From: Rhabdobacter roseus
Lineage (GTDB): Bacteria; Bacteroidota; Bacteroidia; Cytophagales; Spirosomataceae
Length of the DNA stretch: 64,000 bases
Direction of reading: 5' to 3'
Assembly (NCBI RefSeq): GCF_014202275.1
Contig: NZ_JACHGF010000014.1
Coordinates: forward strand, 1 to 64,000
Program-made: the position numbers and the translations under genes
Shown: positions 10,838 to 37,809 of the stretch, in pieces
Layout: each line of letters starts with the position of its first letter
How positions within the stretch are numbered: position 1 is the first letter of the stretch
The notes under the pieces: model-generated
Database searches by the model: none
Told to the model about the DNA's origin: nothing
What the model saw: only the letters and a program-made list of their open reading frames with translations

Positions 10838-10872
10838 GTCCTTTTTCTTCCCCCCTGCACCTGGCACCTTCG
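10838..10872 (+). promoter_or_regulatory. phage late promoter P1 (GTCCTTT-N24-TTCG)
   Basis: GTCCTTT at 10838-10844 and TTCG at 10869-10872, preceded by ATTTCCC. Same 24-nt gap as P2-P5. It lies between a terminator and the 10897 gene, with TTCG 25 nt before the ATG, and would drive the portal operon. Confidence 0.7.
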
Positions 10873-10896
10873 TAGCTCTAATCAGCTAGCGAAGCG

Positions 10897-11214
10897 ATGT
10901 CCACACTCATTAAGCGCAAGGTTGCCATGGCTGCGCTCCGGGCCGACGACGCCCAGGGCCAGCCCAGCATCCACAGCATCCGGTACCGCAAGAAAGACGG
11001 CACCCTGGGCTACAAGGCCCACGTCTCCAAGAGCTTCCGGCACCTGCCCGGGGCCAGCAAGTACCGCGGCCAGGTGAGCCTGAACCACGAGTTCCTCTTT
11101 CGCAACCACGACGAGTCCGACCCCGCCCAGCAACATTTCCGGATCCTGATCGACCTCCTGGTGGAAGTCGACGGCCACATCATTGACCACACCAACGGAG
11201 AGTACCGCTCATGA
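10897..11214 (+). CDS. small protein preceding portal
   Basis: 105 aa, basic, strand-rich, with a pattern reminiscent of a small DNA-binding or head-associated protein (SIRYRKKDGTLGYKAHVSK). It is first in the late operon under P1 and overlaps the portal start by 4 nt, indicating translational coupling. Genes in this slot upstream of portal are sometimes small terminase subunits, but a better candidate lies beside the large terminase at 42099, so no function is assigned. Confidence 0.6.
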   Translation: MSTLIKRKVAMAALRADDAQGQPSIHSIRYRKKDGTLGYKAHVSKSFRHLPGASKYRGQVSLNHEFLFRNHDESDPAQQHFRILIDLLVEVDGHIIDHTNGEYRS

Positions 11215-12488
11215 TCACACCCATTGACCAGAATTTCTTCGTCATCGAGGGGAAGAACCAGAGTGTAGGCGTACAGCTCTACACCCGCGACGTCAGCTTC
11301 GGCAGCTCACAAGGTTATTATGTCGACGGCATCCACGACCATGTACGCTGGGGCGTCGGCGACAACCAGCCCAACGTGATCCGCCGCCTGGTGGAGAAGA
11401 ACACCATCGTGCGCTCGTTGCTCGAGTCGCTCCGAGACATGATCTACGGCTCGGGCGTGGGCTTCTTCCAGAAAACCATCGTCGACGGCAAGATCCAGCT
11501 CACGCCCTACCTCGATACCAAGCTTGAGGACTGGAGCGAGGCCACTGAGCTCACCGACTACGTCATCAGCGCCATCAATCAGCGCGTGGACAACGCCAAC
11601 ATCTTTACGCGCTGGCAGTACGATCCGATCGACGACTGGTTCCTGCTCAGCGTGTCGGACAGCTTCAAGACCCGCATCGGCCATCCCGAGAAGAAACCGG
11701 CCTACCACGTGAACCCCTACTTCGGGCAAATCGGCCAGTTTCACCTGGCCGACACGGAGCAGATCCCCGTCTTCGACCCCCGCAACCGGGAGCACAACCT
11801 GAAGCACACGGTCACGATGTCGCACGGCAAGGAGCAGCTGGGCGGCCAGCCGCACTACGCTTTCCCCAGCTGGTGGTGCTCGCAGGAAGCCATCGAGCTG
11901 GCCAACCTGATCACCGCCTTCCACAAAAACGGGATCCTGAACGGCTACAACATCAAGTACCTGATCAAAATGCCCCAGGACTACTTCGATAAGGACGGTA
12001 ACCGCAACCTGGACTCCAAGGACGTAAAGCAGCGCTGGAGCAAGTGGGGCGACAACCTCTCGAGCTGGCTATCGGGTACGGAGAACGTCAACAAGTCGAT
12101 GCTGATCAAGTACATGCGGGGAAGCGACGGCAAGATGATGGACAGTATCGATGTAGTGCCGCTGAAGAACCTCATGTCCGACGACGCCTACGACAAGGTC
12201 TGGAACAACTCCAACCAGGCCATTACCAACTCGGTGGGTATCCTGCCCACCCTGGCCGGGGTGAAGGCCGGATCCGGGAACGACTCCGGTAGCCAGATCC
12301 GGGTCATGGCCGACTACCAGCAGCACTTCCGGACGCCCATCCCGCGCCACATCGTGCTCAAGCCCGTGAACCAGGCCCTGCGCCTGATGGGCTATCGGGA
12401 CGTCATCGCGGCCTTCAAGGAAGTACGCATCACCACCCTCGATGCCAACCCGACGGGCTCCGAGGCCGTCGTCAACCAAGGATCTTAA
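11211..12488 (+). CDS. phage portal protein (Bacteroidota type)
   Basis: 425 aa. Portal-like features: an N-terminal segment leading into NTIVRSLLESLRDMIYGSGV, the region in which portals carry the first core helices, a central mixed domain, and a helical C-terminal part with GSQIRVMADYQQHFRTPIPRH, the alpha-helical stem/clip region. Portals form the dodecameric DNA-entry ring at a head vertex. Length and order (portal, then adaptor) support the call, although terminase and protease lie far away at 37-44 kb. Confidence 0.7.
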   Translation: MITPIDQNFFVIEGKNQSVGVQLYTRDVSFGSSQGYYVDGIHDHVRWGVGDNQPNVIRRLVEKNTIVRSLLESLRDMIYGSGVGFFQKTIVDGKIQLTPYLDTKLEDWSEATELTDYVISAINQRVDNANIFTRWQYDPIDDWFLLSVSDSFKTRIGHPEKKPAYHVNPYFGQIGQFHLADTEQIPVFDPRNREHNLKHTVTMSHGKEQLGGQPHYAFPSWWCSQEAIELANLITAFHKNGILNGYNIKYLIKMPQDYFDKDGNRNLDSKDVKQRWSKWGDNLSSWLSGTENVNKSMLIKYMRGSDGKMMDSIDVVPLKNLMSDDAYDKVWNNSNQAITNSVGILPTLAGVKAGSGNDSGSQIRVMADYQQHFRTPIPRHIVLKPVNQALRLMGYRDVIAAFKEVRITTLDANPTGSEAVVNQGS

Positions 12489-12502
12489 CGACCACACCAA
12501 CC

Positions 12503-13471
12503 ATGCTTTTAGATTCCAACCAACTCAAAGCCCAGCTGGGCGGCGTGCAGGGCAAACTCAACTTCGAGACCGTGGCCCCCTTCGTAAAATCTGCAGCCTG
12601 GGATTTTCGCCGGGCCGTGGGCCGGGAGCTCTACGCGTTCCTGGAGACCTACGATGGCGAAGATCCCCAGCTGACCGAGCTCCAGGAGGCGGCGCAGGGC
12701 TGCGTCGCCTGGGCGGCCTTCGACCGCGCCGCGCCCCATCTCAAGCTCCGGATTGGGGACCTGGGCATCATGAAGAACTCCCCCTCCAACACGGTGGCCA
12801 TCACCAAGTGGGAGTACGTAGACCTGCGCGAGTCCAACATGGTGATGGTGGACCTGTACTGGGAGTTTTTCTGGGAGCGGCTCGACGAAGCCCGCCCCGA
12901 GGCCTGGACCACCTCCGAGGCCTACCAGCGCCACCACAGCTACTTCATCCGCTCGGCCGCGGAGCTTACCAAGTACCTGCCCCTAGCGGGCCGCAACCGG
13001 CGCTTTTTCGACGCCATTACGGAATACATCCGGCGCGCCGAGCAGCTCTACATCGAGGACGTGCTCACCGAGGGCGTCTTCGAGGAGCTGAAGGGCAAGT
13101 GGCAGAGCGCCCAGGCCAGCCTGACGCCCCTGGAGACCAAGCTCGTGGAGCGGATCCGGGAGGCGTTGGCTCACCTGGCCATCTACGAGGCCTACCCCTA
13201 CTTGCCCATCAAGGTGGACCAGCAGGGCTTCCGGCAGGTCAGGATGCAGGACGGCCTCCAAGAGGAAGATCCCGCCGAACGGCCCAACCGCCAGGCGCAG
13301 CGCCGCCAGCTCTGGCAAGACGGCCAGCTCTACCTGGGCCGCCTGCGCAGTTTCCTAAACCGCCACGCCACCGAAAGTACCTTCCCCAGCTACTACGAGC
13401 AAAACCTGGCTCCGCAGCCCGACGACGAAGACTTCGACGATTTCACCCATAAACCACACGTAATCCTATGA
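12503..13471 (+). CDS. head-tail adaptor, DUF6712-like, internally duplicated
   Basis: 322 aa, helical. Two halves share a pattern: a helical bundle, then a conserved segment of the type A-x-x-A-Y/F-x-x-x-x-P-x-L (AAFDRAAPHLKLRIGDLG near residue 75 and AIYEAYPYLPIKVDQQG near 235). This looks like the DUF6712 family found downstream of Bacteroides phage portals and predicted to be neck or head-completion proteins. It is 14 nt after portal and overlaps the next start by 4 nt. Confidence 0.65.
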   Translation: MLLDSNQLKAQLGGVQGKLNFETVAPFVKSAAWDFRRAVGRELYAFLETYDGEDPQLTELQEAAQGCVAWAAFDRAAPHLKLRIGDLGIMKNSPSNTVAITKWEYVDLRESNMVMVDLYWEFFWERLDEARPEAWTTSEAYQRHHSYFIRSAAELTKYLPLAGRNRRFFDAITEYIRRAEQLYIEDVLTEGVFEELKGKWQSAQASLTPLETKLVERIREALAHLAIYEAYPYLPIKVDQQGFRQVRMQDGLQEEDPAERPNRQAQRRQLWQDGQLYLGRLRSFLNRHATESTFPSYYEQNLAPQPDDEDFDDFTHKPHVIL

Positions 13472-16973: not shown

Positions 16974-16974
16974 A

Positions 16975-19338
16975 TTAGGGAGACTCTTTACCTTGTATAA
17001 GTACCTTTGAATTTGGACCCGTAAAATTAATTGCTCCTCCTTTATAGATAATTTCCCTTGCTTCCGCATTTTGGGAAGCAAGGGAAACAGTGTGTCCAGA
17101 ATGAATAATGACGATATCACTACTTAGGGGAACGCGACCGCAGGTCCAGGTGGTCGTATTTTCCCAAGCCCCGGTCTGTTTACTTTGACATAGGTTCGTT
17201 GCCACATAAAAGAAAGAGGTATCGGAAACCACCTCGCCTGAAGGTGTCTCACCCAGTACCATCACTTCGCGTTTGCCGACATATGCTCCTGCCGATGCCA
17301 CATATTGCGCGGTGGATCCCGCTTTCATGGCTACGTACACCGAGTCGTAACTGTAACGTACAATCGTCCTGATGTTGGATAGCCCCGAACCGCTCGCTGC
17401 GATCGGAACCTGATTGCCCGGTTCCCAATAGCTTCCTTTTTCTGGTGAAGTTATGCTTATGGAGGCTGTACTCGATGTGCTAGCCCCCTTTCCTTGCGTA
17501 GGGAAGGTGGGAGATTGCGGATTATAATCAAGTGCCACTGGGTCAAACCCCATACAAAAACTACCGCCTTGTGGATCTGAACGGAGTAATCTTTTCACAG
17601 CCAAAATAACCTGCTGGTTGCCTGGTGCACCCATGTGGATTTGGTTGGGTATAGAGGTAGTACATGCACCCGTCAATCCCCCTTTTTGACTGGAAGCCGA
17701 TACAATTAAATCATTCTCTATATCCGGAAAAAAGATGAGTCCCGTGCGGTAAGAGCCAAAAGCGTCCAGGATCCAACCCAGGCTAAATGTTTTGTCTTTC
17801 AGCATCAAAAAATCATTAACTTCTTCCGGGGTAGCGTATTCAGCCGTGACTATAGTATGTGATGGTACCATATTATCATTAAGCCTGCTACCGTTCAGAT
17901 CCTGGTCTATGGCGGTGCTATTGACCCTGAGATCGTCGACCGCCCCTTCATCGCATAAAGAGTTATTGGATGTAAAAAACTGCTTTATGACATTTGCGCA
18001 AGCAATCTCATTGGCTCGTTGGTTGCTGATATCCAATAAAAAGTTGGCCATCTGAGAGCCCGAGTGCGGCGTATTGATGGTGACCAACTTATGGATATCA
18101 GACCGGTAGTTATCACTCTGCAAATAGAGTCGGGATAGAATCCCTCCCATGCTGTGCCCCACGATATCTACACTACCCGCCGAAATGTTTTTTCCACGTA
18201 GTCCACTGAGGAGATCCGTAATGTTGCGGGGAATCACGTTACTATTTTCGGCAAAATGCTTGTTGTTTGTCGCCGAATAGTCTACCCGGCGGACCAAATC
18301 AAACGTATAGAGCTCATCCTTTAACAACTCTTGCTCCATCATGGCAAAAGATGTTCGATCTGACCACAGCCCATGGACCATTAAGACGGGAGCACGGTTA
18401 ACCTCAATAAAAAATTGCATCCCCGATGTCCCCGGGATACTTACATTGGCCGTAAAAGCGAAGTAGGGTGCTTCGGAATTCACAAACTCTGGGTGCTTAT
18501 AGCGCATTACCAGGCTATCGGCTGTCCGCGATAAAACGGTAAGGCTCCCGTAAATAGATGCCGGACTAGGCAAAGTGATGTTGGCCTGGCTGTAATTCCG
18601 ATTTCCACCCGACAGTTTGAAAATGGAAGCCTCACTGCCATCGGCGCACACCTTAAAGGTACCTGCGCCCGAGGTTGAAGCCAGCAGCTGCCTTTGGTTC
18701 AAGGGGGGATGGTTGGATACTTGGTGGTAGTGCTGTACGGCAGAATTCATTCGTACCTCATATTCCATTTTTACCACACAATTACCGGAAGCCGATGAAG
18801 CAGGACACGAAAGCGTGTACGTTGTTGGGGATGTGGGAGCAACAATAAGGCTATTGCCAGTATCTCCGGTTGACCATACCGGATTGGTCGGGCAATTGGC
18901 CGTGAGTGTAACCGGCTCTCCGGGATTGATAGTTCGTGTAGGTCCACCCATCCCGTAATCATAATGGGTGTATCCTTTAACCGTGGAGACATTCACTCTT
19001 TCACTCATATTATTAAGCCCGTAGGGAGGCACACTACAATAGAATTGGTGTGTGTATAAACCAGGACCTACAACAAAATACGCAGAACCCTCCGGCAAGG
19101 TCGTATAAGGGGGATATGGCAACACGGAGTACATACTAAATCCCGCATAATTTATGAATGGGATAGAGCCAGGGGTAGGACATGTAACAATAAATACTAA
19201 GGTATCAGGGTGGCATCCTGTTCGTGCGTCTCCCACGATAACCGGGGGAGCGATCTGCCCAAACCCAATGTGGCTTTGGCAAACAAGTAGAAAAAAACCT
19301 AAAAGTACCGATAAAGTAGGGCGTATAATTCTATTCAT
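16975..19338 (-). CDS. secreted alpha/beta-hydrolase (lipase-like), prophage cargo
   Basis: 787 aa with an N-terminal signal peptide. A beta-rich ~300-residue region is followed by an alpha/beta-hydrolase domain: VLMVHGLWSD forms the oxyanion turn and GHSMGG near residue 393 carries the nucleophile Ser, in a PGAP1/triacylglycerol-lipase-like context. The C-terminal ~200 residues hold Ig-like and beta-helix-like segments, with no clear T9SS sorting tail. It is reversed relative to the late operon and has lower GC, so it looks like inserted cargo that may be expressed from the lysogen. Substrate unknown. Confidence 0.75.
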   Translation of the reverse strand: MNRIIRPTLSVLLGFFLLVCQSHIGFGQIAPPVIVGDARTGCHPDTLVFIVTCPTPGSIPFINYAGFSMYSVLPYPPYTTLPEGSAYFVVGPGLYTHQFYCSVPPYGLNNMSERVNVSTVKGYTHYDYGMGGPTRTINPGEPVTLTANCPTNPVWSTGDTGNSLIVAPTSPTTYTLSCPASSASGNCVVKMEYEVRMNSAVQHYHQVSNHPPLNQRQLLASTSGAGTFKVCADGSEASIFKLSGGNRNYSQANITLPSPASIYGSLTVLSRTADSLVMRYKHPEFVNSEAPYFAFTANVSIPGTSGMQFFIEVNRAPVLMVHGLWSDRTSFAMMEQELLKDELYTFDLVRRVDYSATNNKHFAENSNVIPRNITDLLSGLRGKNISAGSVDIVGHSMGGILSRLYLQSDNYRSDIHKLVTINTPHSGSQMANFLLDISNQRANEIACANVIKQFFTSNNSLCDEGAVDDLRVNSTAIDQDLNGSRLNDNMVPSHTIVTAEYATPEEVNDFLMLKDKTFSLGWILDAFGSYRTGLIFFPDIENDLIVSASSQKGGLTGACTTSIPNQIHMGAPGNQQVILAVKRLLRSDPQGGSFCMGFDPVALDYNPQSPTFPTQGKGASTSSTASISITSPEKGSYWEPGNQVPIAASGSGLSNIRTIVRYSYDSVYVAMKAGSTAQYVASAGAYVGKREVMVLGETPSGEVVSDTSFFYVATNLCQSKQTGAWENTTTWTCGRVPLSSDIVIIHSGHTVSLASQNAEAREIIYKGGAINFTGPNSKVLIQGKESP

Positions 19339-19467
19339 AAGGCATCAAATGGTCACTTAACATTAGCCAGCAAAGAAAATAGATTTACTCACATTAGTTT
19401 GTAAAAGTTGCTAAAATTCATCTATCCTGTCCTTTCCCTTCAACATACATGGGCGCAACTTGCCCTC

Positions 19468-20331
19468 ATGAAAGTCATCTCCATCAACGGCCGGGCCTTC
19501 CAGCTGCCCGAAAGCTGGACCGAAGTACCCGCCGAGCGGCTCCCCGAGCTGCTCCGGCTGCTCTTCGTGCTGCCCGAAAGCGGCTCGACCTACCACGAGC
19601 TGCTGCGCGTGCTGCTGGGCTACAGCCCCAAGGCCTGGCGTAAGCTCATGCAGCGCTTCTTTTCGCCGGAGCGCTCCGAAGCCCAGCGCCAGGCCAGCGC
19701 CCAGGCCCTGGCCGAGCTGCTGCGCCTGGTGGGCTGGATGCGCTCCGACGACCTCACGGCCGCGCCCTTTCCCCACCTGGTGGTGGACGGCACGCCCTGG
19801 CTGCTCTTCGAGGAAGGCTTCGCCACGATGACCTACGGCGAGCTGGCCGACGCCTACATCCACGCCCAGGCCTTCGTGAAGCAGCTGGTGGAAGGCGAAG
19901 AGCGGCTCGACCGCCTGGTGGCCACGCTGTGCCGCCCCGAGCGGGCCGGGGCCTACCAGCAGGACCCCGCCTGGAACGGCGACCGCCGCCAGGACTACAA
20001 CGAGCACCAGGCGCGCCACCGGGCGGCTCAGCTCCGCGGCCGCTACGTGCCGGAGAAGATTCTGGTGCTGGTGTACTTCATGGGCAGCCTGAAGGATTTC
20101 TACGCCCACTTCGACCTCTGGGACGACGACGAGTCCGCCCCGCCCCGGCCCGAAGACTACCCCGGCCAGAACCTGCTAAAAAACCAGCATTTGCTGGCCG
20201 AAAAGCAGATCTTCGGCAGCATGCCCGCTACGCGCCAGGCCAACGTGCACGAGGTGTTCCAGTTTCTGGAAGAGCACCGCAAGGACGTGAAGGAAGAAAA
20301 TCAACGCCGCCAGGCCCAAGCTCAAGACTGA
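19468..20331 (+). CDS. tail-region protein of unknown function
   Basis: 287 aa from ATG 19468; an in-frame ATG at 19408 would add 20 residues with AT-rich, non-phage-like coding. Helical and Leu/Glu-rich, with a conserved-looking domain around ELLRVLLGYSPKAWRKLMQ and a charged C-terminal helix. It is the first gene after the reversed lipase and is followed at 2 nt by another tail-region gene. Proteins in this slot in Bacteroidota siphophages are usually tail assembly factors; function not established. Confidence 0.6.
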   Translation: MKVISINGRAFQLPESWTEVPAERLPELLRLLFVLPESGSTYHELLRVLLGYSPKAWRKLMQRFFSPERSEAQRQASAQALAELLRLVGWMRSDDLTAAPFPHLVVDGTPWLLFEEGFATMTYGELADAYIHAQAFVKQLVEGEERLDRLVATLCRPERAGAYQQDPAWNGDRRQDYNEHQARHRAAQLRGRYVPEKILVLVYFMGSLKDFYAHFDLWDDDESAPPRPEDYPGQNLLKNQHLLAEKQIFGSMPATRQANVHEVFQFLEEHRKDVKEENQRRQAQAQD

Positions 20332-20333
20332 CC

Positions 20334-20798
20334 ATGACCCCCACCGACTCCCTTTTCTGGCCCTACCTGCGGCCCATCCTGGAAGCCCAGCCGGGCGTGA
20401 CCTACGTGCAGCTCTCGGATGCCAACGGCATGGACCGGCTCCTGGAAGACAGCCGCTCGGAAGATGTCTACCCCGGCATCTTCGTAATGAGGCCCAAGTG
20501 GAACGGCCGCACCGTCGACAACGCCCTGCTGCTGACGGATTTTCAGGTAATCGCCTACTTTTTTTGCCCGGCCAAGCCCGACGACCGCGCCAGCCAGGAT
20601 GCCGCCTACCAGCAGGCCGAAGCCCTGGCTAGTGGGGTGATCCAACAGCTCCAGGAGCACCGCTACACCTACCAGAACTACCTGGACTTCGACTCCATCC
20701 GGATGGAGCCGGTGCTCTACCACACCGGCGTCGATGCGGCGTACGGCTACGAATTGAAATTCAAACTCGGCCTGGAGGCCAATATGATCTATGCGTAA
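20334..20798 (+). CDS. probable head-tail/tail completion protein
   Basis: 154 aa from ATG 20334; a longer in-frame extension lies inside the preceding gene and is rejected. Mixed alpha/beta, with strands at both ends (IFVMRPKWNGRTVDNALLL and YGYELKFKLGLEAN). The pattern resembles small tail-completion proteins that ring the head-tail joint. Overlaps the next gene by 8 nt. No confident family assignment. Confidence 0.55.
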   Translation: MTPTDSLFWPYLRPILEAQPGVTYVQLSDANGMDRLLEDSRSEDVYPGIFVMRPKWNGRTVDNALLLTDFQVIAYFFCPAKPDDRASQDAAYQQAEALASGVIQQLQEHRYTYQNYLDFDSIRMEPVLYHTGVDAAYGYELKFKLGLEANMIYA

Positions 20799-21057
20799 GA
20801 CCTTCCTTTTTCTGAAAGCGCTCGGGCGGCTCATCGTGGTGGCGCTGCACCTGGTGGTGCTCGGGGCGTGGCTCTGGCTGTATGACCGCCGCAAGAAAAT
20901 CGGGTTCTGGCTGGTGTGGATCCTGCTAGTACCGCTGGTGTTTGGCCGGTACCTCTGGAGCGATCTGCGCCACGGGCGCTTCCGGCACGCCACGGCCTGG
21001 GTGAAGACCGGGCTGGTACGGCAGACTGTGTGGCATAGGCTAGTCTTGGGCCGCTAG
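20791..21057 (+). CDS. small two-TM protein
   Basis: 88 aa with two hydrophobic helices (about residues 11-31 and 38-53) and Arg-rich ends. Overlaps the preceding gene by 8 nt. A membrane protein in the tail-gene block is odd; it might be a second lysis or superinfection factor. The late promoter P2 starts 11 nt after its stop. Confidence 0.5.
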   Translation: MRKTFLFLKALGRLIVVALHLVVLGAWLWLYDRRKKIGFWLVWILLVPLVFGRYLWSDLRHGRFRHATAWVKTGLVRQTVWHRLVLGR

Positions 21058-21067
21058 GCTCCATTTC

Positions 21068-21102
21068 GTCCTTTCTGCCTATTTCAGCGCCCGCGATCTT
21101 CG
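21068..21102 (+). promoter_or_regulatory. phage late promoter P2 (GTCCTTT-N24-TTCG)
   Basis: GTCCTTT at 21068-21074 and TTCG at 21099-21102, preceded by ATTTC. This is the only one of the five without a clear terminator just upstream. TTCG ends 19 nt before the ATG at 21121. Confidence 0.65.
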
Positions 21103-23145: not shown

Positions 23146-24539
23146 TCCGGATCAACGGCTACGAAGTACTCACCCTGCCGGGCCAACGGGTGGAGTACAC
23201 CCTTACCAACCCCTACCTGGTGTACAGCCAGATCCTGGGCAGCCAGGCCCAACTGCCCGACCTGCCCGCTGTGCGGCAAAACCGGGCCATTTTTCAGTAC
23301 TACGAGGAGCCCCAGGCGGGCGGCTACCTGCCCGAGCTGCTCTTCCAGCACTTCTACGGCGGGGAGCTCATCCGGGAGGGCTTCTACGTGCTCACGGAGG
23401 CCAGCGAAGCGGGCTACAAGGGCACCTACACCGACAAGCTCGGGCTGTTTTTCGGCGATTACCAGCAGAGCCTGCTGAGCGAGATCCCCCTGGGGGTACT
23501 GGATCCGGAGCTGCCCTTACCAGCGGACGGGCTTTTGATGGTAGACGGCCAGGCCGCGGCCTGCTTGCCTACCCTTGTGAACGACACGTTTTACGGGGCC
23601 AACGGCGCGGCGCTAGGCTACTCGGGCCGGATCAATGACTACCAGGAGGGTGCTTATGAAGACGGGCCAAAGGTACCTTGTGTATTCGTGACCTGGCTGC
23701 TGAAGCGGATCGCGGCCGTGACGGGTACCACCGTGGGCGGGAGCTTCTTTTCGCACCCACAATGGAGCCAGCTGGTGCTGGTGAATATGCGCGAGTGGGA
23801 AAGCGGGCCGATTGACGTGCGCAACCACCTGCCCGCCTGGACGATCCCGCAGCTGCTGCTGGAGCTACGGAAGGTACCCAACTTGGCGCTCACCTTCAAC
23901 GCCGTGACGCGCCACCTGGACGTGGATTTTTGGGAAGATAGCCTCCGGCAGCCCACGCGCCGGGACTGGTCGGCCAAGGCCGTGCGGGGCGAAGTGAAGA
24001 CCCCCGAGCCGAACACCCGGGTGCAGTTGAGCCAGGTGGTGGATTCGGGCGACGCCCTGGCCAAGGACAAGCCGCCCGTGCTGTCCGATTACCTTTCCGA
24101 AGAAACGGAAGGTACCAGGAACGGTATTGCCCAGCTACCTATGCAGCTGTCGACGATGGTGGTGGACGAAGCCACCGGCCTGGCGGCCTGCCGCCAGGAG
24201 GGCCAGAGTAGCCAGCTGGCGCAGCAGGCCAAGGCCTGGGCGCCGCGGCTGCTGTTCTGGCAGGGCGTGGTGGCGGGCTACCCCCGGGCGCTGCCCACCC
24301 TGGGCGGCCTGAGCCTGTACCCGCAGGACCTGGCCACCACCAGCTGGCGCGAGACGATCGCGCTCCGCAAGCGGATGTTCTACCTTCAGAAGGATTTCGT
24401 GCTCACGGAAACGGACCTGGCCCGGCTGGATTTCCGGGAAAAAATCCACGTGGATGGGGTAGACTACCTGATAGCGCAGCTGAATGTGGCGGTGCCGATC
24501 GAGGGCGTGGCAACGGCGCTATTGATCGGGGGCGTGTGA
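23142..24539 (+). CDS. structural protein, probable tail/baseplate component
   Basis: 465 aa, mixed alpha/beta, with a pattern typical of large tail proteins in Bacteroidota phages: an N-terminal beta region (LPGQRVEYTLTNPYLVYS), a central helix-rich section, and a C-terminal beta domain ending in the hydrophobic ALLIGGV. Translationally coupled to the gene upstream (4-nt overlap). Its 3' end overlaps a reversed small gene by 21 nt, where cargo is inserted. Exact role not resolvable by eye. Confidence 0.6.
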   Translation: MIRINGYEVLTLPGQRVEYTLTNPYLVYSQILGSQAQLPDLPAVRQNRAIFQYYEEPQAGGYLPELLFQHFYGGELIREGFYVLTEASEAGYKGTYTDKLGLFFGDYQQSLLSEIPLGVLDPELPLPADGLLMVDGQAAACLPTLVNDTFYGANGAALGYSGRINDYQEGAYEDGPKVPCVFVTWLLKRIAAVTGTTVGGSFFSHPQWSQLVLVNMREWESGPIDVRNHLPAWTIPQLLLELRKVPNLALTFNAVTRHLDVDFWEDSLRQPTRRDWSAKAVRGEVKTPEPNTRVQLSQVVDSGDALAKDKPPVLSDYLSEETEGTRNGIAQLPMQLSTMVVDEATGLAACRQEGQSSQLAQQAKAWAPRLLFWQGVVAGYPRALPTLGGLSLYPQDLATTSWRETIALRKRMFYLQKDFVLTETDLARLDFREKIHVDGVDYLIAQLNVAVPIEGVATALLIGGV

Positions 24540-24740
24540 GTCGGGATTCCGGATAATGGTGTAGAAGTACCAACTGGCCATGTTTTTCAGGTTGATTTGT
24601 ATCAAGGCTTCGTCGGTTGAGTCGACTTCTATGACCTCTAACAGGATCGGCAGGTGCCGCCTTACCTGGATCGTGGGCCGGGTAGGTTGGTAGGCATCCA
24701 TCTCCTGATGGGTACGAAATGACTTTATGGCCACTTTCAT
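24519..24740 (-). CDS. small reversed cargo protein
   Basis: 73 aa from ATG 24740; an upstream in-frame ATG at 24818 is rejected because its codons run through the terminator hairpin at 24758-24793. The protein starts VAIKSFRTHQEMDAYQ, has a short strand (ILLEVIEVD) and ends SHAPDQ. Its last 21 nt overlap the end of the rightward tail gene. Unknown function, perhaps a second member of a small two-gene cargo. Confidence 0.45.
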   Translation of the reverse strand: MKVAIKSFRTHQEMDAYQPTRPTIQVRRHLPILLEVIEVDSTDEALIQINLKNMASWYFYTIIRNPDSHAPDQ

Positions 24741-24757
24741 GACTGGGTTGTACTGGC

Positions 24758-24793
24758 AAAAAAGAAAGGCCGCTCCGGATTCCGAAGCGGCCT
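24758..24793 (-). terminator. terminator of the leftward small gene
   Basis: AGGCCGCT (24767-24774) pairs with AGCGGCCT (24786-24793); reading leftward it is followed by a T-run (plus-strand A-run at 24758-24763). It ends the 24809-25036 transcript. Confidence 0.75.
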
Positions 24794-24808
24794 CAAACCG
24801 AAATTTTT

Positions 24809-25036
24809 TTATATGCACGTGACTTCTAAGAAGTGTACCCGTGGATCGCGCCGGTCGGGTGGGTGAATGACATAGAGTTTTCGTTCACCATTTTCTTCCG
24901 TGATGTAATAGGGCACCCAAAGGCGCTCCCGGATGAAAATGGGGACGTTGCGGCGTTTCCACCGCTCACCCCGCGCATCGAGTCGGCTAAAGACTTCCCG
25001 CGCGGAGACAATGTTGTCTTCGAGGCTTGCTTCCAT
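24809..25036 (-). CDS. small reversed cargo protein
   Basis: 75 aa with a charged helical start and a strand-rich C-terminus containing Arg/Tyr-rich segments (ERLWVPYYITEENGERKLY). No domain recognised. It lies between the tail block and the Dam-like methylase, opposite to both, and ends just before a terminator. Likely a lysogenically expressed accessory gene; possibly regulatory, but no evidence. Confidence 0.5.
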   Translation of the reverse strand: MEASLEDNIVSAREVFSRLDARGERWKRRNVPIFIRERLWVPYYITEENGERKLYVIHPPDRRDPRVHFLEVTCI

Positions 25037-25165
25037 GATTTACTTACCTGTTGTTGACCCGGTGGCGCATCCGGGAGAATGTGTACTGTCCGAAATGTAC
25101 GGATTATTGTCCTTTGGCGGGCTGGAAATGCGTCAAATTTTTGCCGCCTCATTCATTTACTAGCC

Positions 25166-25975
25166 ATGAAAACGAAACCAGTCAAGCGCGAAATGCGCAC
25201 GCCCATCAGCTACTACGGGGGTAAGCAGCGCATGGTACCCGCCATCCTGCCCAAGATCCCCAAGCACCACACCTACGTCGAGCCCTTCTTTGGGGGCGGA
25301 GCCGTATTCTGGGCCAAGCCACCTTCCCAGGCCGAAGTGGTCAACGACATCAACCACCGGCTCGTCACCTTCTACAAGGTACTTAAGTACGATTTCGAGG
25401 ATCTGGCCAGCCGGGTCGACGAGACGTTTCACAGCCGGGCCCAGCACCGGGAATCCGACGAGCTGTACCTCTCGCAGCAGGAGGAAATCACCCAGCCGGT
25501 GGCCTGTGCCTGGAGCGTGTGGGTGCAGACCAACATGAGCTTCGGGACGATGATCGGCGGGGGCTTCGGATACGACCGGGGCGGGAAGTGCGCCCTGAAG
25601 ATCGCCAACAAAAAGGCCGCGCTGACGTCGGCCTTCCAGGACCGGCTCCGGCGCGTGACCATCGAGTGCTATGACGTGCTGAAGGTAATCCGGGCCTACG
25701 ACGCGCCGGATGCTTTTTTCTACCTGGATCCACCCTACGTCACCTCCAACCAGGGCCATTACGGCGGCTACACGATGGACGACTTCCGGGCGCTGCTGGA
25801 TGCCTGCGCGACCATGCAGGGGACTTCCCTGCTGAGCAGCTACCCGGAAGAGATCCTGATGGAGTACCGCGACCGGTACGGCTGGAAGAGCGAAGACCAC
25901 GTGAAGGCGCTCTGCGTGGATGGCCGCCGGAAGGAGGCCAAAACGAAAACCGAGTGCCTGACCTGGAACTACTAG
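25166..25975 (+). CDS. Dam-family DNA adenine-N6 methyltransferase
   Basis: 269 aa from ATG 25166; a 29-residue in-frame extension to 25079 does not resemble the family and overlaps upstream regulatory sequence. Motif I is FFGGG (residues 41-45, SAM binding); motif IV DPPY near 188 is the catalytic motif of alpha-type adenine methylases, followed by a YGGY segment. No restriction endonuclease is adjacent, so it is an orphan, probably protecting phage DNA or altering its regulation. A badly damaged relative lies in the host flank at 56138-56636. Confidence 0.9.
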   Translation: MKTKPVKREMRTPISYYGGKQRMVPAILPKIPKHHTYVEPFFGGGAVFWAKPPSQAEVVNDINHRLVTFYKVLKYDFEDLASRVDETFHSRAQHRESDELYLSQQEEITQPVACAWSVWVQTNMSFGTMIGGGFGYDRGGKCALKIANKKAALTSAFQDRLRRVTIECYDVLKVIRAYDAPDAFFYLDPPYVTSNQGHYGGYTMDDFRALLDACATMQGTSLLSSYPEEILMEYRDRYGWKSEDHVKALCVDGRRKEAKTKTECLTWNY

Positions 25976-25986: not shown

Positions 25987-26012
25987 AACCCCGCCCTGAG
26001 CGGGGCTTTTTG
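25987..26012 (+). terminator. terminator after the methylase
   Basis: CCCCGC (25989-25994) pairs with GCGGGG (26000-26005) followed by CTTTTTG. The late promoter P3 starts 2 nt later. Confidence 0.8.
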
Positions 26013-26013: not shown

Positions 26014-26048
26014 GTCCTTTCCTGCCGCCTGGAAGCCTGCCAACTTCG
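26014..26048 (+). promoter_or_regulatory. phage late promoter P3 (GTCCTTT-N24-TTCG)
   Basis: GTCCTTT at 26014-26020 and TTCG at 26045-26048. The first 13 nt (GTCCTTTCCTGCC) are identical to P5. It directly follows a terminator and precedes the tail-completion and tape-measure operon, with TTCG 28 nt before the ATG at 26077. Confidence 0.7.
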
Positions 26049-30960: not shown

Positions 30961-31449
30961 ATGACCAAAAAAATCGCAATTGCCCTACCACTCTATCTGA
31001 AGAAGTTTTTTCTGTACGAGTACCAAGGCTACCAGGTGGAGCGCCCTAATGGCTCCCTGGATGAGATCCACGTGGACAAGACCAGCGAGCTGGGCAAGCT
31101 GATCCACCTGGTGAGCCGCCCGATCCCCTTCACCCAGGCGGCCCATAAGCCGACCGGCGCGGGGGTACTGTCGATCCGCTACTACGTGCGGGAGAAGATC
31201 TACGAAGTGCCGGTGGAGAAGCTACCCCTGCTGGCGTACCAGATGGAGGAGATCTTCCGGCGCACGCTCATCTGTGAGGTGCGGGGGGTACACGACGTGG
31301 TGGGTGGCGACTACGGCCCCTACGTGGCCCGGGTACTGGAGCGCCGGGGCATTGTGCGCGACGTGGACCTGGACTACCAGACGGCCCGCAAGATTTACCG
31401 CGACCACCTGGAAAAAAATAAAAAAAAACAGGCAAAAATATTTGCCTAA
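30961..31449 (+). CDS. 162-aa protein after tape measure
   Basis: Mixed alpha/beta, ending with a basic helix (YQTARKIYRDHLEKNKKKQ) and a Lys run encoded by an A-rich tract. No domain recognised. It is followed within 4 nt by three 20-bp tandem repeats, then a terminator and late promoter P4. The basic C-terminus would suit a DNA-binding protein, and binding to the adjacent repeats is a possible but untested link. Confidence 0.55.
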   Translation: MTKKIAIALPLYLKKFFLYEYQGYQVERPNGSLDEIHVDKTSELGKLIHLVSRPIPFTQAAHKPTGAGVLSIRYYVREKIYEVPVEKLPLLAYQMEEIFRRTLICEVRGVHDVVGGDYGPYVARVLERRGIVRDVDLDYQTARKIYRDHLEKNKKKQAKIFA

Positions 31450-31452
31450 AAA

Positions 31453-31512: not shown

Positions 31513-31520
31513 GTATTTTG

Positions 31521-31567
31521 ACGAAAACGGCCCCGGCGTATAACCGTGGCCGTTTTCGCTTTTTTTT
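31521..31567 (+). terminator. terminator before P4
   Basis: CGAAAACGGCC (31522-31532) pairs with GGCCGTTTTCG (31548-31558), followed by eight T. Strong intrinsic terminator directly after the tandem repeats. Confidence 0.85.
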
Positions 31568-31591
31568 GGGGCGGGAAATACCCCATTTCCC

Positions 31592-31626
31592 GTCCTTTCA
31601 AATGGGCCTCTGGCCCCCTACATTCG
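31592..31626 (+). promoter_or_regulatory. phage late promoter P4 (GTCCTTT-N24-TTCG)
   Basis: GTCCTTT at 31592-31598 and TTCG at 31623-31626, preceded by ATTTCCC as at P1. The ATG of the next gene lies only 4 nt beyond TTCG, so if this is a -7 box the mRNA would be leaderless or nearly so. Confidence 0.65.
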
Positions 31627-31630
31627 GGCC

Positions 31631-32170
31631 ATGTTAGGCCAACTCCACACCCTTGCTCCTACCTCCCGGCCCAACCCCGGTTTTCTGACCCACGTGTACC
31701 TGATCCCCGCGGATGGCGTAGCCTACGTGCTACCGCCTACCGCGGGGCTGGTGCTGCCGGAGCGGGGCGTGGGGATCGTACCGGGCGCGCTAATCACGCA
31801 GCTGAAGCCCCGGGCGCTGACGGCCACGCTCACCGAGGGACAACAGCAGGGAGCCGATGGCCCCTCCTACCTGGTGGAGATCACGGTACCCTTTGCCAGC
31901 GACTACCTGCCCCTGGCGGCCTGGGTGCAGCAGCACGCCCGGCGGCGCTTCGTGGTGGTGCTGCGCGACACGCTGGGCAACGCCTACCTGGTAGGTACCC
32001 GCGAGAACGGCGCGCGCCTGGCCTGGGGCCGCCAGATCCAGAGCCGCCACGCCCAGAGCCTGGTACTGCGGGCGGTAAGCCTGCACCCGATGGCCACGCT
32101 GGCCAGCGTGGATCCGGAGGTACTCTTTCCGAACCGGGACTGGGACTACAGTTTTGACTTATCTTTCTAA
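31631..32170 (+). CDS. 179-aa structural protein, start uncertain
   Basis: Strand-rich with a Pro-rich start (LAPTSRPNPGFLTHVYLIP) and several short beta segments. No recognised family. ATG 31631 lies almost on the promoter P4 box, which implies a leaderless transcript or a wrong start; no other good ATG is near. Followed at 12 nt by the 603-aa fiber gene. Possible baseplate or tail-tip protein. Confidence 0.5.
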   Translation: MLGQLHTLAPTSRPNPGFLTHVYLIPADGVAYVLPPTAGLVLPERGVGIVPGALITQLKPRALTATLTEGQQQGADGPSYLVEITVPFASDYLPLAAWVQQHARRRFVVVLRDTLGNAYLVGTRENGARLAWGRQIQSRHAQSLVLRAVSLHPMATLASVDPEVLFPNRDWDYSFDLSF

Positions 32171-32182
32171 TATATCCACACC

Positions 32183-33994: not shown

Positions 33995-33996
33995 TA

Positions 33997-34428
33997 ATGA
34001 AAAAAGCCCAACTCAGTAACACTGATTTTTCGGTACGGATCCTGCCCACCGAAATGCGCTACAGCCCCGTTTCGGACATGTACGCGGGTACCTTCCCGGT
34101 GCCCGACGGAGCAGGTGGCACGGTGGATGTGCCCATGAACCTGATTCGCCTGCAATACATCATCTACGCCGGGAAGTACAAGAAAACGATCCTGGCTCCG
34201 GATGAGCTGGGGATAGACGTGGAAACCACGGTGTGGGAAGACTTTACGACGCCGGTGCCTTTTGACGAGGGCGTTCGGGAGATCCCCTACAAGCTGTACC
34301 TGGCCATTGAGGCCTACCGCGACGAGCCCAGCCCTGAGCTGCTGGCCCAGATCAACGCGCAGCTGACGGGCTTTCTCTTCGAGCGCAGCATGGCGGGCTT
34401 TGTGTTGCAGGTAAGCCAGATTTCCTGA
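33997..34428 (+). CDS. 143-aa fiber-associated protein
   Basis: Strand-rich first half with a conserved-looking GTFPVPDGAGGTVDVPMNL, then a helical C-terminus. Placed between two fiber genes, starting 2 nt after one and overlapping the next small gene by 1 nt. It may be a fiber chaperone or a small baseplate protein; family not recognised. Confidence 0.5.
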   Translation: MKKAQLSNTDFSVRILPTEMRYSPVSDMYAGTFPVPDGAGGTVDVPMNLIRLQYIIYAGKYKKTILAPDELGIDVETTVWEDFTTPVPFDEGVREIPYKLYLAIEAYRDEPSPELLAQINAQLTGFLFERSMAGFVLQVSQIS

Positions 34429-34754
34429 TGGCGACCTACGTGTTCCAGACCGTGGACATCCTGGGCGTGCGCCGGGGGGATAGCTTCGAGGCCAGCTTCG
34501 AGATTGGCGAAGAACTAGACCTGACCGGCTGCACCGCCCGGGCCCAGCTGCGTAGGTACCCCAGTGACTTCCAGAAGGCCCTGGAGCTGGACGTGGAGCT
34601 CGACGGGCAGCTGCTGCTGCTGAGTAAGGCCGCCCAGTCGATGCACCTGGCGGCGGCTACCTACCACTACGACGTGGAGATCACCGACCCGACGGGGCTG
34701 GTGATCACGCTTTTTGGGGGAAAATTCGAGATTACACACGACGTGACGCGATGA
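34428..34754 (+). CDS. small BppU-like / fiber-attachment protein
   Basis: 108 aa, all-beta. The pattern of strands (RRGDSFEASFEIGEELDL, then YDVEITDPTGLVITLFGG) resembles the N-terminal immunoglobulin-like domain of baseplate upper proteins (BppU family) that anchor fibers. It overlaps both neighbours by 1-4 nt and lies directly upstream of the repeat-bearing fiber gene. Similarity judged by eye only. Confidence 0.55.
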   Translation: MATYVFQTVDILGVRRGDSFEASFEIGEELDLTGCTARAQLRRYPSDFQKALELDVELDGQLLLLSKAAQSMHLAAATYHYDVEITDPTGLVITLFGGKFEITHDVTR

Positions 34755-36958
34755 GCCTAACCAAGATACAACCGCAAACCGTGGGGCCGGTGAAAGTACC
34801 CATCCAGCGCCTGGGCCCGCGCGGAGCCAAGGGCTGGACGCCCCTGCTGCGGGCCGTAAGTGACGGCCCGCGCAAGCTCCTGGAGCTCTACGACTGGACC
34901 GGGGGCCTGGCTCCCAAGCCGCACACGGGCTACGTGGGCCCCGCGGGCCTGGTGGCCGACCTAGCCCTGGCGCTGGACTTCACCGGCCGGGGCCTGGCCA
35001 GCGTGGCCCAGGACCCAGAGGCTAACCTGGTCTTCACCTACGACGACGGGGTGACGGAGACCATCCCGGCCTACTTCGCGCCGGTGTTGGCGGCCGCCGC
35101 CCAGGTCGATGCCGACGCCCAGGCCGTGGAGCTGACGCGGGCGCTGCTGGAAGCCCTGAAGCTGTCGGTAGAAGGTACCGCCGCCACCGTGGACCTGGAT
35201 GCCCAGGCGGTGGAAATGACGCGGGCGTTGTTGGAAGCCCTGAAGCTGTCGGTAGAAAGCACCGCTACTACGGTAGGTCATGATGCCCAGGCGGTAGAGC
35301 TGACGCGGGCGCTGCTGGAAGCCCTGAAGCTGTCGGTAGAAGGTACCGCCGCCACCGTGGACCTGGATGCCCAGGCGGTGGAAATGACGCGGGCGTTGTT
35401 GGAAGCCCTGAAGCTGTCGGTAGAAGGCACGGCCGCCACGGTAGATCTTGATGCCCAGGCGGTAGAGCAGACCCGGGCGCTGCTGGCAGCGCTGGCTGAG
35501 CAGGTAGGCCAGGACAAACAAGCCGTGGAAGGCATCCTGGCGGCCTTCGAGCAGCTCTACGGGCACGGCCAGGCCATTAGCCTGGCCGTGCAGCAATCCT
35601 TCCAAAATGCTGTGCAGTCGGAGCTGGCACTGAATCTAGCCTTGGTATACCGGAACGAGACGGAGCAGAAGCGGATCGAGGTCAACGCCCTGCTGACCCA
35701 GGCGGCGGAGATCGTCTTCAACGGGGCAACGGATAGGCCAACGATCCGGCCTAGTTTTCGGTGGCACCGTGACCAGGGCGTGCTGGATCCACGCATCGAG
35801 CTTTCGTATTCAGGGCTCTTAGCGGTCTTCGATCGGTTTGGGAGCCTGCGATGGGTACCGGCCAGCGCCCGAGCCTTGGATTACGACCCGGTGACGGGGG
35901 CTTGCCTGGGCTTGCCGGTTTTCCAGGGGCGCGCTAACTTGCTCTCCAGCCGAAATTTTACGACCGGTTGGGGGGCCAATGCGGGAGGCGATGTGGTGTT
36001 CCCCCTCCTAATAGAAACGGACTCACGATTTTCGGAGCGATATAAGCTCGTCCCAACCGCAAGCAATGGCTTACATCGCATTTTCCACAGTAATGTCACG
36101 TTGGTGTCCGGGCAGGCTTATGCGCTTTCTGTAGTGGCGCGGGCGGGTGAATACCGCTACCTATCTCTGCGCATGGCGGGTGCTGCTGGAGTTCCTAGTG
36201 CGACCATCGTTTTCGACCTAATTGACAAGGTGGCCACGACCGCCACGGGGCTTAGTACTGCCATTCGAGACCTGGGGGGCGGGGTGCTACAATGCGATCT
36301 CGTCGGTACAGCGGCAGCTAACGGCACCATGAATGCTTATGTCGGTGTATCGGATGTTTTCACGAGCAACTACCCGTCCTGGATTGCCGATGGCACGAGT
36401 GGTATATATGTTTACGCCGTCAACCTCCAGACAGGCGGCTCTTCTACCCCGATCATTGGGGCGGCCCGTGGAAACATTTTGGCGCAGATAAGCGGATTGG
36501 CTCTATCACAATTTTTCAACCCGAATGAGGGTACCATCGTGGTCGAGTTCATAAGCACCGCGCCTGTCGGCGATTCAACAAGGATGATTAGCTTCAACTC
36601 TGGGGGTGCTGCGAGTACAGGAGGACACATTCAGATTGCAACCAGTAGTACCGCTGGACAAGGGTCTGTAATGCAAAAACGCCCCAACGGAGGGGTGGTG
36701 CAGACTAGAAGCCTTGGTACTTATGTGCCTGGCAGTGTATATAAGGTTGCTGGGGCTTATGATCAGAATGAGATTAGGGCTAGTAGAAACGGATCCGCAG
36801 TACTAAACTCGAATGTAGCAGGTAGTATAGGTGCAATAATGCGCATGGAACTAGGGGCTCAAGCCCAGGACAATTTTCTGAATGGCTGGATCCGAAGTAT
36901 TGAATTTTTCCCCAAAAAACTACCTGATTCCCAACTTGTAGCCCTATCTCGCCTATAA
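34751..36958 (+). CDS. tail fiber protein with coiled-coil repeats and lectin-like head
   Basis: 735 aa. Residues ~1-115 form an attachment region including a collagen-like patch (GPRGAKGWTP). Residues ~122-260 hold five 28-residue units (DAQAVELTRALLEALKLSVE...), each four heptads long, forming a trimeric coiled-coil stalk. Residues ~320-735 contain YDPVTGACLGL and a LamG/jelly-roll-like carbohydrate-binding region similar to the 603-aa fiber. It lacks the C-terminal beta domain of that fiber, which is encoded by the next gene. Likely a receptor-binding fiber. Confidence 0.75.
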   Translation: MSLTKIQPQTVGPVKVPIQRLGPRGAKGWTPLLRAVSDGPRKLLELYDWTGGLAPKPHTGYVGPAGLVADLALALDFTGRGLASVAQDPEANLVFTYDDGVTETIPAYFAPVLAAAAQVDADAQAVELTRALLEALKLSVEGTAATVDLDAQAVEMTRALLEALKLSVESTATTVGHDAQAVELTRALLEALKLSVEGTAATVDLDAQAVEMTRALLEALKLSVEGTAATVDLDAQAVEQTRALLAALAEQVGQDKQAVEGILAAFEQLYGHGQAISLAVQQSFQNAVQSELALNLALVYRNETEQKRIEVNALLTQAAEIVFNGATDRPTIRPSFRWHRDQGVLDPRIELSYSGLLAVFDRFGSLRWVPASARALDYDPVTGACLGLPVFQGRANLLSSRNFTTGWGANAGGDVVFPLLIETDSRFSERYKLVPTASNGLHRIFHSNVTLVSGQAYALSVVARAGEYRYLSLRMAGAAGVPSATIVFDLIDKVATTATGLSTAIRDLGGGVLQCDLVGTAAANGTMNAYVGVSDVFTSNYPSWIADGTSGIYVYAVNLQTGGSSTPIIGAARGNILAQISGLALSQFFNPNEGTIVVEFISTAPVGDSTRMISFNSGGAASTGGHIQIATSSTAGQGSVMQKRPNGGVVQTRSLGTYVPGSVYKVAGAYDQNEIRASRNGSAVLNSNVAGSIGAIMRMELGAQAQDNFLNGWIRSIEFFPKKLPDSQLVALSRL
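35114..35533 (+). repeat. 84-bp in-frame tandem repeat in fiber gene
   Basis: Five units start at 35114, 35198, 35282, 35366 and 35450, four nearly identical at the DNA level and the fifth diverging. Unit length (28 codons) equals four heptads. Such repeats can expand or contract by slippage and so change stalk length. Confidence 0.85.
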
Positions 36959-36960
36959 CC

Positions 36961-37281
36961 ATGCCGCTAATTCCCGGAAATAGCCCCCACCAGATACCAA
37001 CCAACGACCAGCTTGGTGCCCAGCTAGACGCCCAGCAGCTCGTCCGCTTCCGCCTTCGCCAGGAATTTAGTCTGCGCGGTACCGGCGCAAGCGAAACCGT
37101 CACAATCAGGCGGCCATACCTCTTTGAGTTCGCCATAGTGGACTCGGTGGGTACCACGAGTCTGATGTTGCCCAATGGCAACGCGGACGGCTCTTTTAGT
37201 GCCGATACGCCCTACTTATTGACGTTCACCACACCGGTGGGCAACCTGCTCACGTACTCCATCACGCCGATTATCCAATGA
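36961..37281 (+). CDS. stand-alone copy of the fiber C-terminal domain
   Basis: 106 aa. From about residue 28 to the end it matches the last ~75 residues of the 603-aa fiber: shared GTGASxTVTIRRPYxF, then a closing LTYSITP. It begins 2 nt after the 735-aa fiber, whose end lacks this domain, so a fiber has apparently been split or the module duplicated. It may assemble at the fiber tip or act as a trimerisation cap. Overlaps the next gene by 4 nt. Confidence 0.65.
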   Translation: MPLIPGNSPHQIPTNDQLGAQLDAQQLVRFRLRQEFSLRGTGASETVTIRRPYLFEFAIVDSVGTTSLMLPNGNADGSFSADTPYLLTFTTPVGNLLTYSITPIIQ

Positions 37282-37715
37282 GAACCTATCCCGACGTGCC
37301 GCTGGCCAAATGCACCAGCGGCAAGCCCACCTGGTGGATGGTGACCGAAGACGTGCTGTGCGAAGATGCGGACGGCAGCCGGTATATTATCCCGGCGGGC
37401 TTCGTGAGCAACTTCGCCAGTATGCCCAGCCTGCTGTACCCGCTGATCCCGCCCCATGGGCCGAGCGCGATCCCGAGCGTGAAGCACGACTACCGCTACA
37501 CCCACCTGGTGGGCATGGGTGAGCTGGGCTACTGGGAAGCGAGGCTAGCCGCCGACCGGCAGTACTACCGCGACCTTAGAAAAGCGGGCGTGAAGCGAAA
37601 AATAGCCCGGGCGATGTACCGGGGTGTGCGGGCCGGTGGCTGGTGGTGGTGGAACCGCCACGCGCGCCGAAAGCTTGGTGAGCTCATGCAGATCTACGTA
37701 TCTTTACATCTTTAA
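37278..37715 (+). CDS. DUF1353-family protein
   Basis: 145 aa with DUF1353 hallmarks: ITC-like strand start, the conserved PAGFVSNFASMPSLLYPLIPP block and the VKHDYRY motif. The family is common next to phage fiber and lysis genes; biochemical role is unknown, though a hydrolase has been suggested. C-terminal part is Trp/Arg-rich. Last gene of the P4 operon, ending 20 nt before a terminator. Confidence 0.8.
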   Translation: MRTYPDVPLAKCTSGKPTWWMVTEDVLCEDADGSRYIIPAGFVSNFASMPSLLYPLIPPHGPSAIPSVKHDYRYTHLVGMGELGYWEARLAADRQYYRDLRKAGVKRKIARAMYRGVRAGGWWWWNRHARRKLGELMQIYVSLHL

Positions 37716-37734
37716 TGGTGTGGATATATGTCGG

Positions 37735-37768
37735 AAAGCCCGGTCGCAGTAGCGGCTGGGCTTTTTTG
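37735..37768 (+). terminator. terminator before P5
   Basis: A 13-bp stem (37735-37747 with 37752-37764, two G-T pairs) with a 4-nt loop and a T-run after it. It overlaps the open frame that seems to begin at 37715, which shows that frame's first codons are not translated as part of the protease. Confidence 0.8.
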
Positions 37769-37774
37769 TTTTTC

Positions 37775-37809
37775 GTCCTTTCCTGCCTACCCTTTCCCCT
37801 ATTACTTCG
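37775..37809 (+). promoter_or_regulatory. phage late promoter P5 (GTCCTTT-N24-TTCG)
   Basis: GTCCTTT at 37775-37781 and TTCG at 37806-37809; first 13 nt identical to P3. It follows a terminator and drives the head operon (protease, scaffold, capsid). TTCG is 34 nt before the GTG start at 37844. Confidence 0.7.

Follow-up and report, generated by a model that had tools for sequence, protein, structure and literature searches.

A candidate late promoter with an upstream GTCCT box in prophages of Rhabdobacter roseus and other Bacteroidota

The primary sigma factor of Bacteroidota recognises a promoter with a -33 box, TTTG, and a -7 box, TAnnTTTG, the latter mapped at -12 to -5 with the transcription start (+1) four or five nucleotides (nt) downstream (PMC9723704, PMC6847099); Flavobacterium psychrophilum has a TAnnTTGY box too, motif SM5 (PMC9723704), and leaderless mRNAs seem uncommon in these bacteria (PMC9723704, PMC6847099). 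Among phages, protein C of Mu activates four late promoters with non-consensus boxes, one of them for the DNA-modification gene mom (PMC4461284), and at the middle promoters of T4 a MotA box replaces the -35 element and the lower box stays (PMC6755090). Here, we describe a two-box element, GTCCT-N23-AnnTT(C/T)G, repeated in a prophage of Rhabdobacter roseus within a stretch of 64,000 nt (contig NZ_JACHGF010000014.1, positions 1 to 64,000; hereafter the window) of the 6.92-Mb host genome.

We consider it probable that a single deep lineage of tailed phages of Bacteroidota uses this element as its late promoter, read by the host sigma-A together with a phage activator. Promoter activity, start site, use of sigma-A, the activator and timing are what we infer from the observed sequence, spacing, strand, placement and conservation. 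The host primary sigma would recognise a weakened lower box (-12 to -5), with transcription predicted to start 5 nt past its last G, while an upper box (-39 to -35) would take the place of the host -33 box. A phage-encoded activator bound to this upper box would recruit the host RNA polymerase, either by class-II activation or by sigma appropriation, and a single such activator could turn on about eight separate late units together, four of them insulated by an upstream terminator.

The likeness to Mu lies in the several late promoters across the late region, in the service of one of them to a DNA-modification gene (here a Dam-type methylase), and in the non-consensus boxes; promoters with a common box ahead of late operons, as for Mu C, are found by sequence at eight sites of the window and ahead of the same genes in relatives. 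The box, the host RNA polymerase and the larger number of promoters differ from Mu, and no C/Mor relative was recognised in the scanned open reading frames (ORFs). The T4 MotA/AsiA arrangement likewise has its sequence-level parallel in a phage box placed in the -35 position above a retained lower box. However, the MotA box is centred near -30 as against -39 to -35 here, T4 requires an excellent -10 element whereas the lower box here is weakened, structural genes are served here, and no MotA- or AsiA-like Pfam match was found in the 37 window ORFs scanned, a search that distant relatives could escape. The element thus appears to resemble Mu and T4 in logic, and we would not class it as a member of either, because no protein relative of either was recognised. 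Among the matches listed in our literature searches, whose scope mostly excluded subscription papers, none described a conserved late promoter of Bacteroidota phages.

Sites of the element in the window

The original prediction had drawn attention to GTCCTTT-N24-TTCG at five sites of identical spacing, each ahead of the first gene of an operon. All five (10838, 21068, 26014, 31592 and 37775) are exact, all lie on the plus strand against a shuffle mean of 0.02, and each does precede the opening gene of a gene block. Three further sites were recovered, with the lower boxes TTTG (646 and 25109) and TTGC (19429), the last of which escapes the matrix-free TTYG pattern used below. All eight fall within the prophage. 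Labels such as P105, T179 and T162 are our own, given by length, and come from no database; we read TerL, MCP, TMP and integrase as such except where a Pfam match is cited. Scores are those of the weight matrix described below.

646–680, plus strand: candidate late promoter, variant GTCCTTT...TTTG, score 29.4, ahead of a 72-amino-acid (aa) ORF (715–933)
10838–10872, plus strand: candidate late promoter, score 32.0, ahead of the P105/portal unit (from 10897)
19429–19463, plus strand: candidate late promoter, variant with a TTGC lower box, score 23.7, ahead of T307 (ATG at 19468, 4 nt past the box)
21068–21102, plus strand: candidate late promoter ahead of T674 (21121)
25109–25143, plus strand: candidate late promoter, TTTG variant, score 18.7 (under the strict cut of 19.76), with the ATG of the Dam-type methylase at 25166
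26014–26048, plus strand: candidate late promoter ahead of T208, the tape measure gene and T162 (from 26077)
31592–31626, plus strand: candidate late promoter ahead of T179 (ATG at 31631)
37775–37809, plus strand: candidate late promoter ahead of the S49 protease (probable GTG start at 37844), capsid and terminase unit

The T179 mRNA from site 31592 should be leaderless, because the ATG lies only 4 nt past TTCG. The whole host genome contains eight exact matches to GTCCTTT-N24-TTCG, five of them these window sites and the remaining three within open frames 100 codons long or longer.

Conservation and anatomy in related prophages

Of 222 genomes of the host family, which we take to be the Spirosomaceae, 55 gave a TerL match, the window's genome included. 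Around such matches we delimited 18 prophage regions from 18 other genomes, with TerL 45–77% identical; three of them (G163, G170, G172) are close relatives of one another. On their terminase strand, the 18 regions hold 25 copies of the exact string, and on the other strand none; 13 of the 18 have it, and it is absent from G065, G053, G175, G176 and G110. A weight matrix iterated over the window and these 18 regions yields 92 late-strand sites at or above 19.76, the best score on the reverse strand, and 88 exceed that limit by more than 0.5 bit. At the same limit, 400 kb of host DNA searched on both strands gives one site, and reversed or complemented phage sequence gives two. Matrix-free counts weigh more, because the phages scored are those on which the matrix was trained; the matrix also scores G at -32 down and A at +1 up, which biases the counts of matrix-chosen sites.

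The matrix-free counts come from 25 regions, namely the above 19 plus six with more distant TerL, every one of which holds at least one site. The pattern GTCCT-Nn-TTYG occurs 118 times on the terminase strand at n=26 and 2–11 times at each of twelve other spacings from 20 to 32. The opposite strand has 9 at n=26 and 5–19 at the other spacings, and both strands of the 400-kb host sample have 2 at n=26 and 2–9 elsewhere. The longer pattern GTCCTT-Nn-AnnTTYG, counted on both strands of the 19 regions, gives 70 at n=22 and at most 5 elsewhere, with 0 in the host sample. Equal frequency at this spacing in host DNA, which had been named as the outcome that would speak against a phage signal, is therefore not what is seen (2 in 400 kb against 118 in 25 regions). 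The proposal of a phage-dedicated specificity is thus sustained by genes, strand, spacing and near-absence from the host sample.

Placement was counted with sites of at least 17 bits ahead of orthologous genes. The element stands ahead of the S49 protease in 20 of 24 phages, of T179 in 18 of 24, of T208 in 15 of 24 and of the Dam-type methylase in 10 of 11, and is found less often ahead of TMP (3/24) and T307 (2/22). It was never found ahead of T257, T133, the scaffold-like gene, MCP, T465, DUF6712, T162, portal, T192 or TerL. The designation 'late' derives from the genes that the element would control. In five phages (G172, G163, G058, G065, G085), the methylase together with its own site lies behind TerL rather than between the tail genes. 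In the window, the methylase belongs to a small module (24519–25975) made up of two reverse-strand ORFs and the methylase with its own candidate late promoter.

The anatomy of the 118 matrix-free sites relates the lower box to that of the host. The third letter of TTYG is T in 65 and C in 53, and position -11, on which the pattern makes no demand, is A in 91 (T 22, C 3, G 2); position -12 is C in 40, T in 34, G in 33 and A in 11. The 106 matrix-chosen sites of the 25 regions end in TTCG in 45 cases, in TTTG in 43, in TTGC and TTTC in 5 each, in TTAG and TTCA in 3 each and in CTTG in 2, the TTGC form resembling motif SM5 (TAnnTTGY) of F. psychrophilum; in ten regions from other families (see below), TTTG is present in 26 of 30 matrix-free sites. 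Because TTTG is accepted as well as TTCG and the host -7 letters are kept, the lower box reads as a weakened or relaxed host -7 box and not as a new one. Relative to the primary-sigma promoter, it shares the position, A-11, T-8, T-7 and G-5, as well as the predicted distance to the start; it differs in that T-12 is mostly lost (retained in 34 of 118) and T-6 is often C. TTCG as the mark of a special lower box was rejected on the ratio of 65 TTTG to 53 TTCG.

Position -32, where the host -33 box TTTG has its last letter, is G in only 8 of the 118 sites (window site 25109 among them), C in 58, T in 45 and A in 7; that G is found in 1 of 32 exact-string sites and in 0 of 106 matrix-chosen ones, where the matrix penalises it. 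The host -33 box is therefore not conserved, and a GTCCT box is added at -39 to -35, usually continuing TT or TC. Its core is GTCCT and the following TT is dispensable, since the spacing is the same in other lineages where the box reads GTCCTA or GTCCTAC. The real novelty is this upstream box. The overall geometry proposed for a Bacteroidota promoter holds up. The accompanying claim of G-to-C variants in both boxes needs correction, as TTCG is not the rule in the lower one and the G of the upper one is rare and not absent.

The start codons add a further register. Of the 118 matrix-free sites, 20 have an ATG that opens a frame of at least 45 codons exactly 4 nt past the box, and the runner-up offset, 24, has 7; the 4-nt ATG recurs in 23 of the 106 matrix-chosen sites and in 5 of the 30 matrix-free sites of other families, and a related count at 4000 random places gives 1.35% for this offset. 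An ATG so placed would coincide with the expected +1. The main gene concerned is T179, whose mRNA should be leaderless in many phages.

The four hairpins near window sites, together with the bounds of the prophage, are as follows.

10775–10814, plus strand: terminator hairpin ahead of the first late unit, -28.2 kcal/mol, z -6.17 (simple scan: minus strand only)
25989–26010, plus strand: terminator before site 26014, -12.1 kcal/mol, z -2.5 (in the simple scan too)
31522–31567, plus strand: terminator before site 31592, -23.4 kcal/mol, z -3.0 (absent from the simple scan)
37733–37772, plus strand: terminator before site 37775, -25.0 kcal/mol, z -5.7 (in the simple scan too)
377–45751: prophage, bounded by a 23-bp direct repeat (377–399 and 45729–45751)
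45730–45815: tRNA-Ser, overlapped by the right copy of the repeat
44423–45772, minus strand: candidate integrase ORF, so read from its place and its clustering with a 410-aa family (27 of 31 regions); outside the Pfam scan

Folding places a hairpin with a T-run upstream of four of the eight window sites (10838, 26014, 31592 and 37775) and no hairpin terminator ahead of 21068 (z -0.2), in agreement with the original prediction that four of its five sites directly follow an intrinsic terminator. A simple terminator scan recovers just two of the four on the plus strand (26014 and 37775), and in it terminator-like sites are no commoner than in shuffles (13 against 14.8; 7 against 6.5). The placement of the sites also favours the predicted division of the late region into separate units by terminator-promoter pairs.

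These hairpins could suggest that the element is a repeated phage signal other than a promoter, for instance an antitermination, RNA-processing or DNA-processing site acting after terminators, as the four window sites right behind hairpins with T-runs would have it. However, over the 106 matrix-chosen sites, a T-run precedes 56 and a stable hairpin 37 (against 10 of 106 random places), and the two occur together at just 27, so there is no tie to terminators; terminators are common near the element yet no part of it. Since the ATG offset fits a start site and the methylase retains its own site after relocation in the phage genome, we regard a non-promoter signal as highly improbable.

Two observations concern the surroundings of these units. 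A reverse-strand gene with an alpha/beta-hydrolase (PGAP1-like) domain (16975–19338) is inserted in the late region, and the TTGC-type promoter at 19429 that follows it seems, by its position, to restart transcription. In the host part of the window, two copies of a probable membrane-protein gene (55103–55666 and 59369–59977; 93% identical over 587 aligned bp), the first truncated, flank response-regulator-like genes.

Candidate readers of the element

Reading of the whole element by a different sigma factor, whether phage-encoded or a host alternative, would account for the fixity of both boxes and their spacing, and TTGC-type -7 boxes are seen both here (5 of 106) and in the SM5 motif of F. 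psychrophilum (PMC9723704). Phage P12024S of Nonlabens even has a gene annotated as sigma-70 region 2 just ahead of its terminase genes (20595–21074 in JQ823122), and it may use its own sigma. Against this explanation, P12024S is without the GTCCT element, the lower box retains the host -7 letters (A, T, T, G) with TTTG at least as frequent as TTCG, no sigma domain was found by Pfam among the 37 scanned window ORFs (a subset of the ORFs), and the motif shows no excess in the host sample. We thus consider a different sigma unlikely.

Alternatively, the phages might exploit a transcription factor of the host that is conserved across Bacteroidota and has few host targets; this could explain why the core is common to phages with unrelated early regions, for which no shared phage regulator was found. 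One host site does pass the limit, on the minus strand of locus L104 (position 6799, score 19.9). Nevertheless, this is the single such site in the 400-kb sample against 92 in the 19 training regions, the 2 matrix-free host matches at the right spacing are no more than at other spacings, and two exact matches to the refined motif outside the prophage both lie in long open frames. Thus, neither the host sample nor the genome matches outside the prophage give any visible host use of the element.

The host genome carries a second prophage, a distant relative of the first (G000:C3, about 656629–674550, loci L208–L210, minus strand), that bears on the same question. Ahead of four of its genes or gene blocks stands a distinct box, GCAACTTTCCTT, and these are all four copies in the 6.92-Mb genome; the lower box follows at the same distance in three and is one base off in the fourth. 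Specificity set by the phage is suggested because this prophage has a different private box, and the presence in one cell of two prophages, each with a box of its own, argues, at the sequence level, for phage-encoded readers. With this in view, we find a host factor quite unlikely, and prefer host sigma-A acting with a phage activator.

The hunt for such an activator used gene clustering, iterated profiles, Pfam, PHROGs and two structure models. The early gene F114 is present in 12 of 31 regions, though not in the window prophage, and has a relative in the second prophage; its model has a beta-alpha-alpha-beta-alpha-alpha fold with no evident helix-turn-helix, and its best structural Z of 7.8 falls in a range that the tool calls common. 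A LytTR protein (PF04397, 2.6e-11) lies in the early region of G208, and other matches of the same search resemble response regulators. In the window, a zinc-site protein (8018–8215) has a weak DksA-like match (E 0.0013) and a 63-aa ORF (10581–10772) matches phrog_22970, neither with relatives in the other 24 regions searched. T162 (30961–31449) is present in 29 of 31 regions and gives a confident model (pLDDT 94.7) whose fold has no clear match among solved structures (best PDB E 0.87; structural aligner Z at most 4.3); among viral proteins, only one, from the Polaribacter phage Leef_1, matches it at E 0.001 or better (2.1e-5). T162 was dropped as a likely activator, as it is also encoded by phage 6H and by Bacteroidales loci that lack the motif.

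Distribution across Bacteroidota

In a phylum sample of 395 genomes, TerL matches were found in six. Regions from other families of the order use dialects of the upper box at the same spacing, namely GTCCTAC (G377, G506, G384) and GTCCTA (G274, 33% GC), and the GTCCTTAAA dialect of G387 is weak (best score 21.7 against 20.9 on the opposite strand). Across six other-family regions, the 5-mer seen most often at a set distance from AnnTTYG, on its upstream side, is GTCCT, with 12 occurrences against a best of 10 on the opposite strand; four further regions, from the six TerL-positive genomes of the phylum sample (G332, G654, G700, G879), have GTCCT-N23-(A/T)nnTTYG on the terminase strand 3, 2, 5 and 4 times. 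The ten together hold 30 matrix-free sites at n=26, 0–7 at other spacings and 2 on the opposite strand.

A wider survey took in 75 named or metagenome TerL loci, grouped by us on organism name, and compared forward matches at n=23 with the total for ten other spacings. The n=23 spacing leads in the Spirosomaceae group (34 against 8), Hymenobacteraceae (9 against 1), Flavobacteriia (11 against 4) and unplaced loci (5 against 1); the counts are 3 against 2 in other Cytophagales and 1 against 1 in Chitinophagales. On the opposite strand, Flavobacteriia have 8 against 6, and in five Flavobacteriia loci with T162 on the reverse strand the motif, with a wider lower box, occurs 15 times in reverse and 3 times forward. 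The cultured phage Leef_1 (Helgolandviridae) shares GTCCTTT in the same 35-nt geometry at four genes, including a hypothetical gene just 5' of the portal (ATG 4 nt past the box) and a neck gene, its record annotating coding genes only. It differs in its lower boxes, which are AnnTTGC in three and TTAG in one, and never TTYG at this spacing. Because the element is present in Leef_1 and in other families and absent from phages 11b, 6H, P12024S and B124-14, it appears to mark one lineage and not every phage of the phylum.

Several results weigh against a late promoter read through a phage activator. With two mismatches allowed, the window holds about as many copies of the string as chance predicts (22 against 19.6 expected), and genome-wide a backwards-read control outnumbers the motif (18 against 8). 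Among the matches listed, the string is scattered in 201 of 222 genomes of the host family, and in many of these it is rarer than the backwards control. The string alone is therefore not phage-specific, and enrichment of the loose string by itself was rejected as evidence; the signal rests instead on exact spacing, strand, place, conservation and density. Of the proposed weight-matrix search of the genome and its relatives, the late-strand enrichment thus stood, whereas confinement of the string itself to phages did not. Three regions (G119b, G247, G387) have a single matrix-free match each, and P105 and T674 carry the element in about half of the phages only (11 of 23 each). The Bacteroidales loci are without clear excess (forward 6 at n=23 against 7 at ten other spacings, and 4 at n=24; on the opposite strand 4 at n=23, against 20 at the others, and 3 at n=24), and no match at the spacing was found in the cultured phages 11b and 6H (Flavobacterium), P12024S (Nonlabens) and B124-14 (Bacteroides). 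The activator was not found, there being no early gene family common to all box-bearing phages, and the two boxes of the one cell share TCCTT, which leaves room for a common host factor.

If the late-promoter reading is true, it would provide a simple sequence rule for late operons and operon borders in many prophages, predict conserved leaderless phage mRNAs, point to a missing activator, and supply phage-switched promoters for Bacteroidota. It is quite possible, though we advance this tentatively, that a phylum-wide late-promoter code lies behind it, in which an ancient lineage of Bacteroidota phages would keep GTCCT at -39, read by an undescribed class of activator in per-phage dialects. 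Such dialects would let prophages within one cell be switched on separately.

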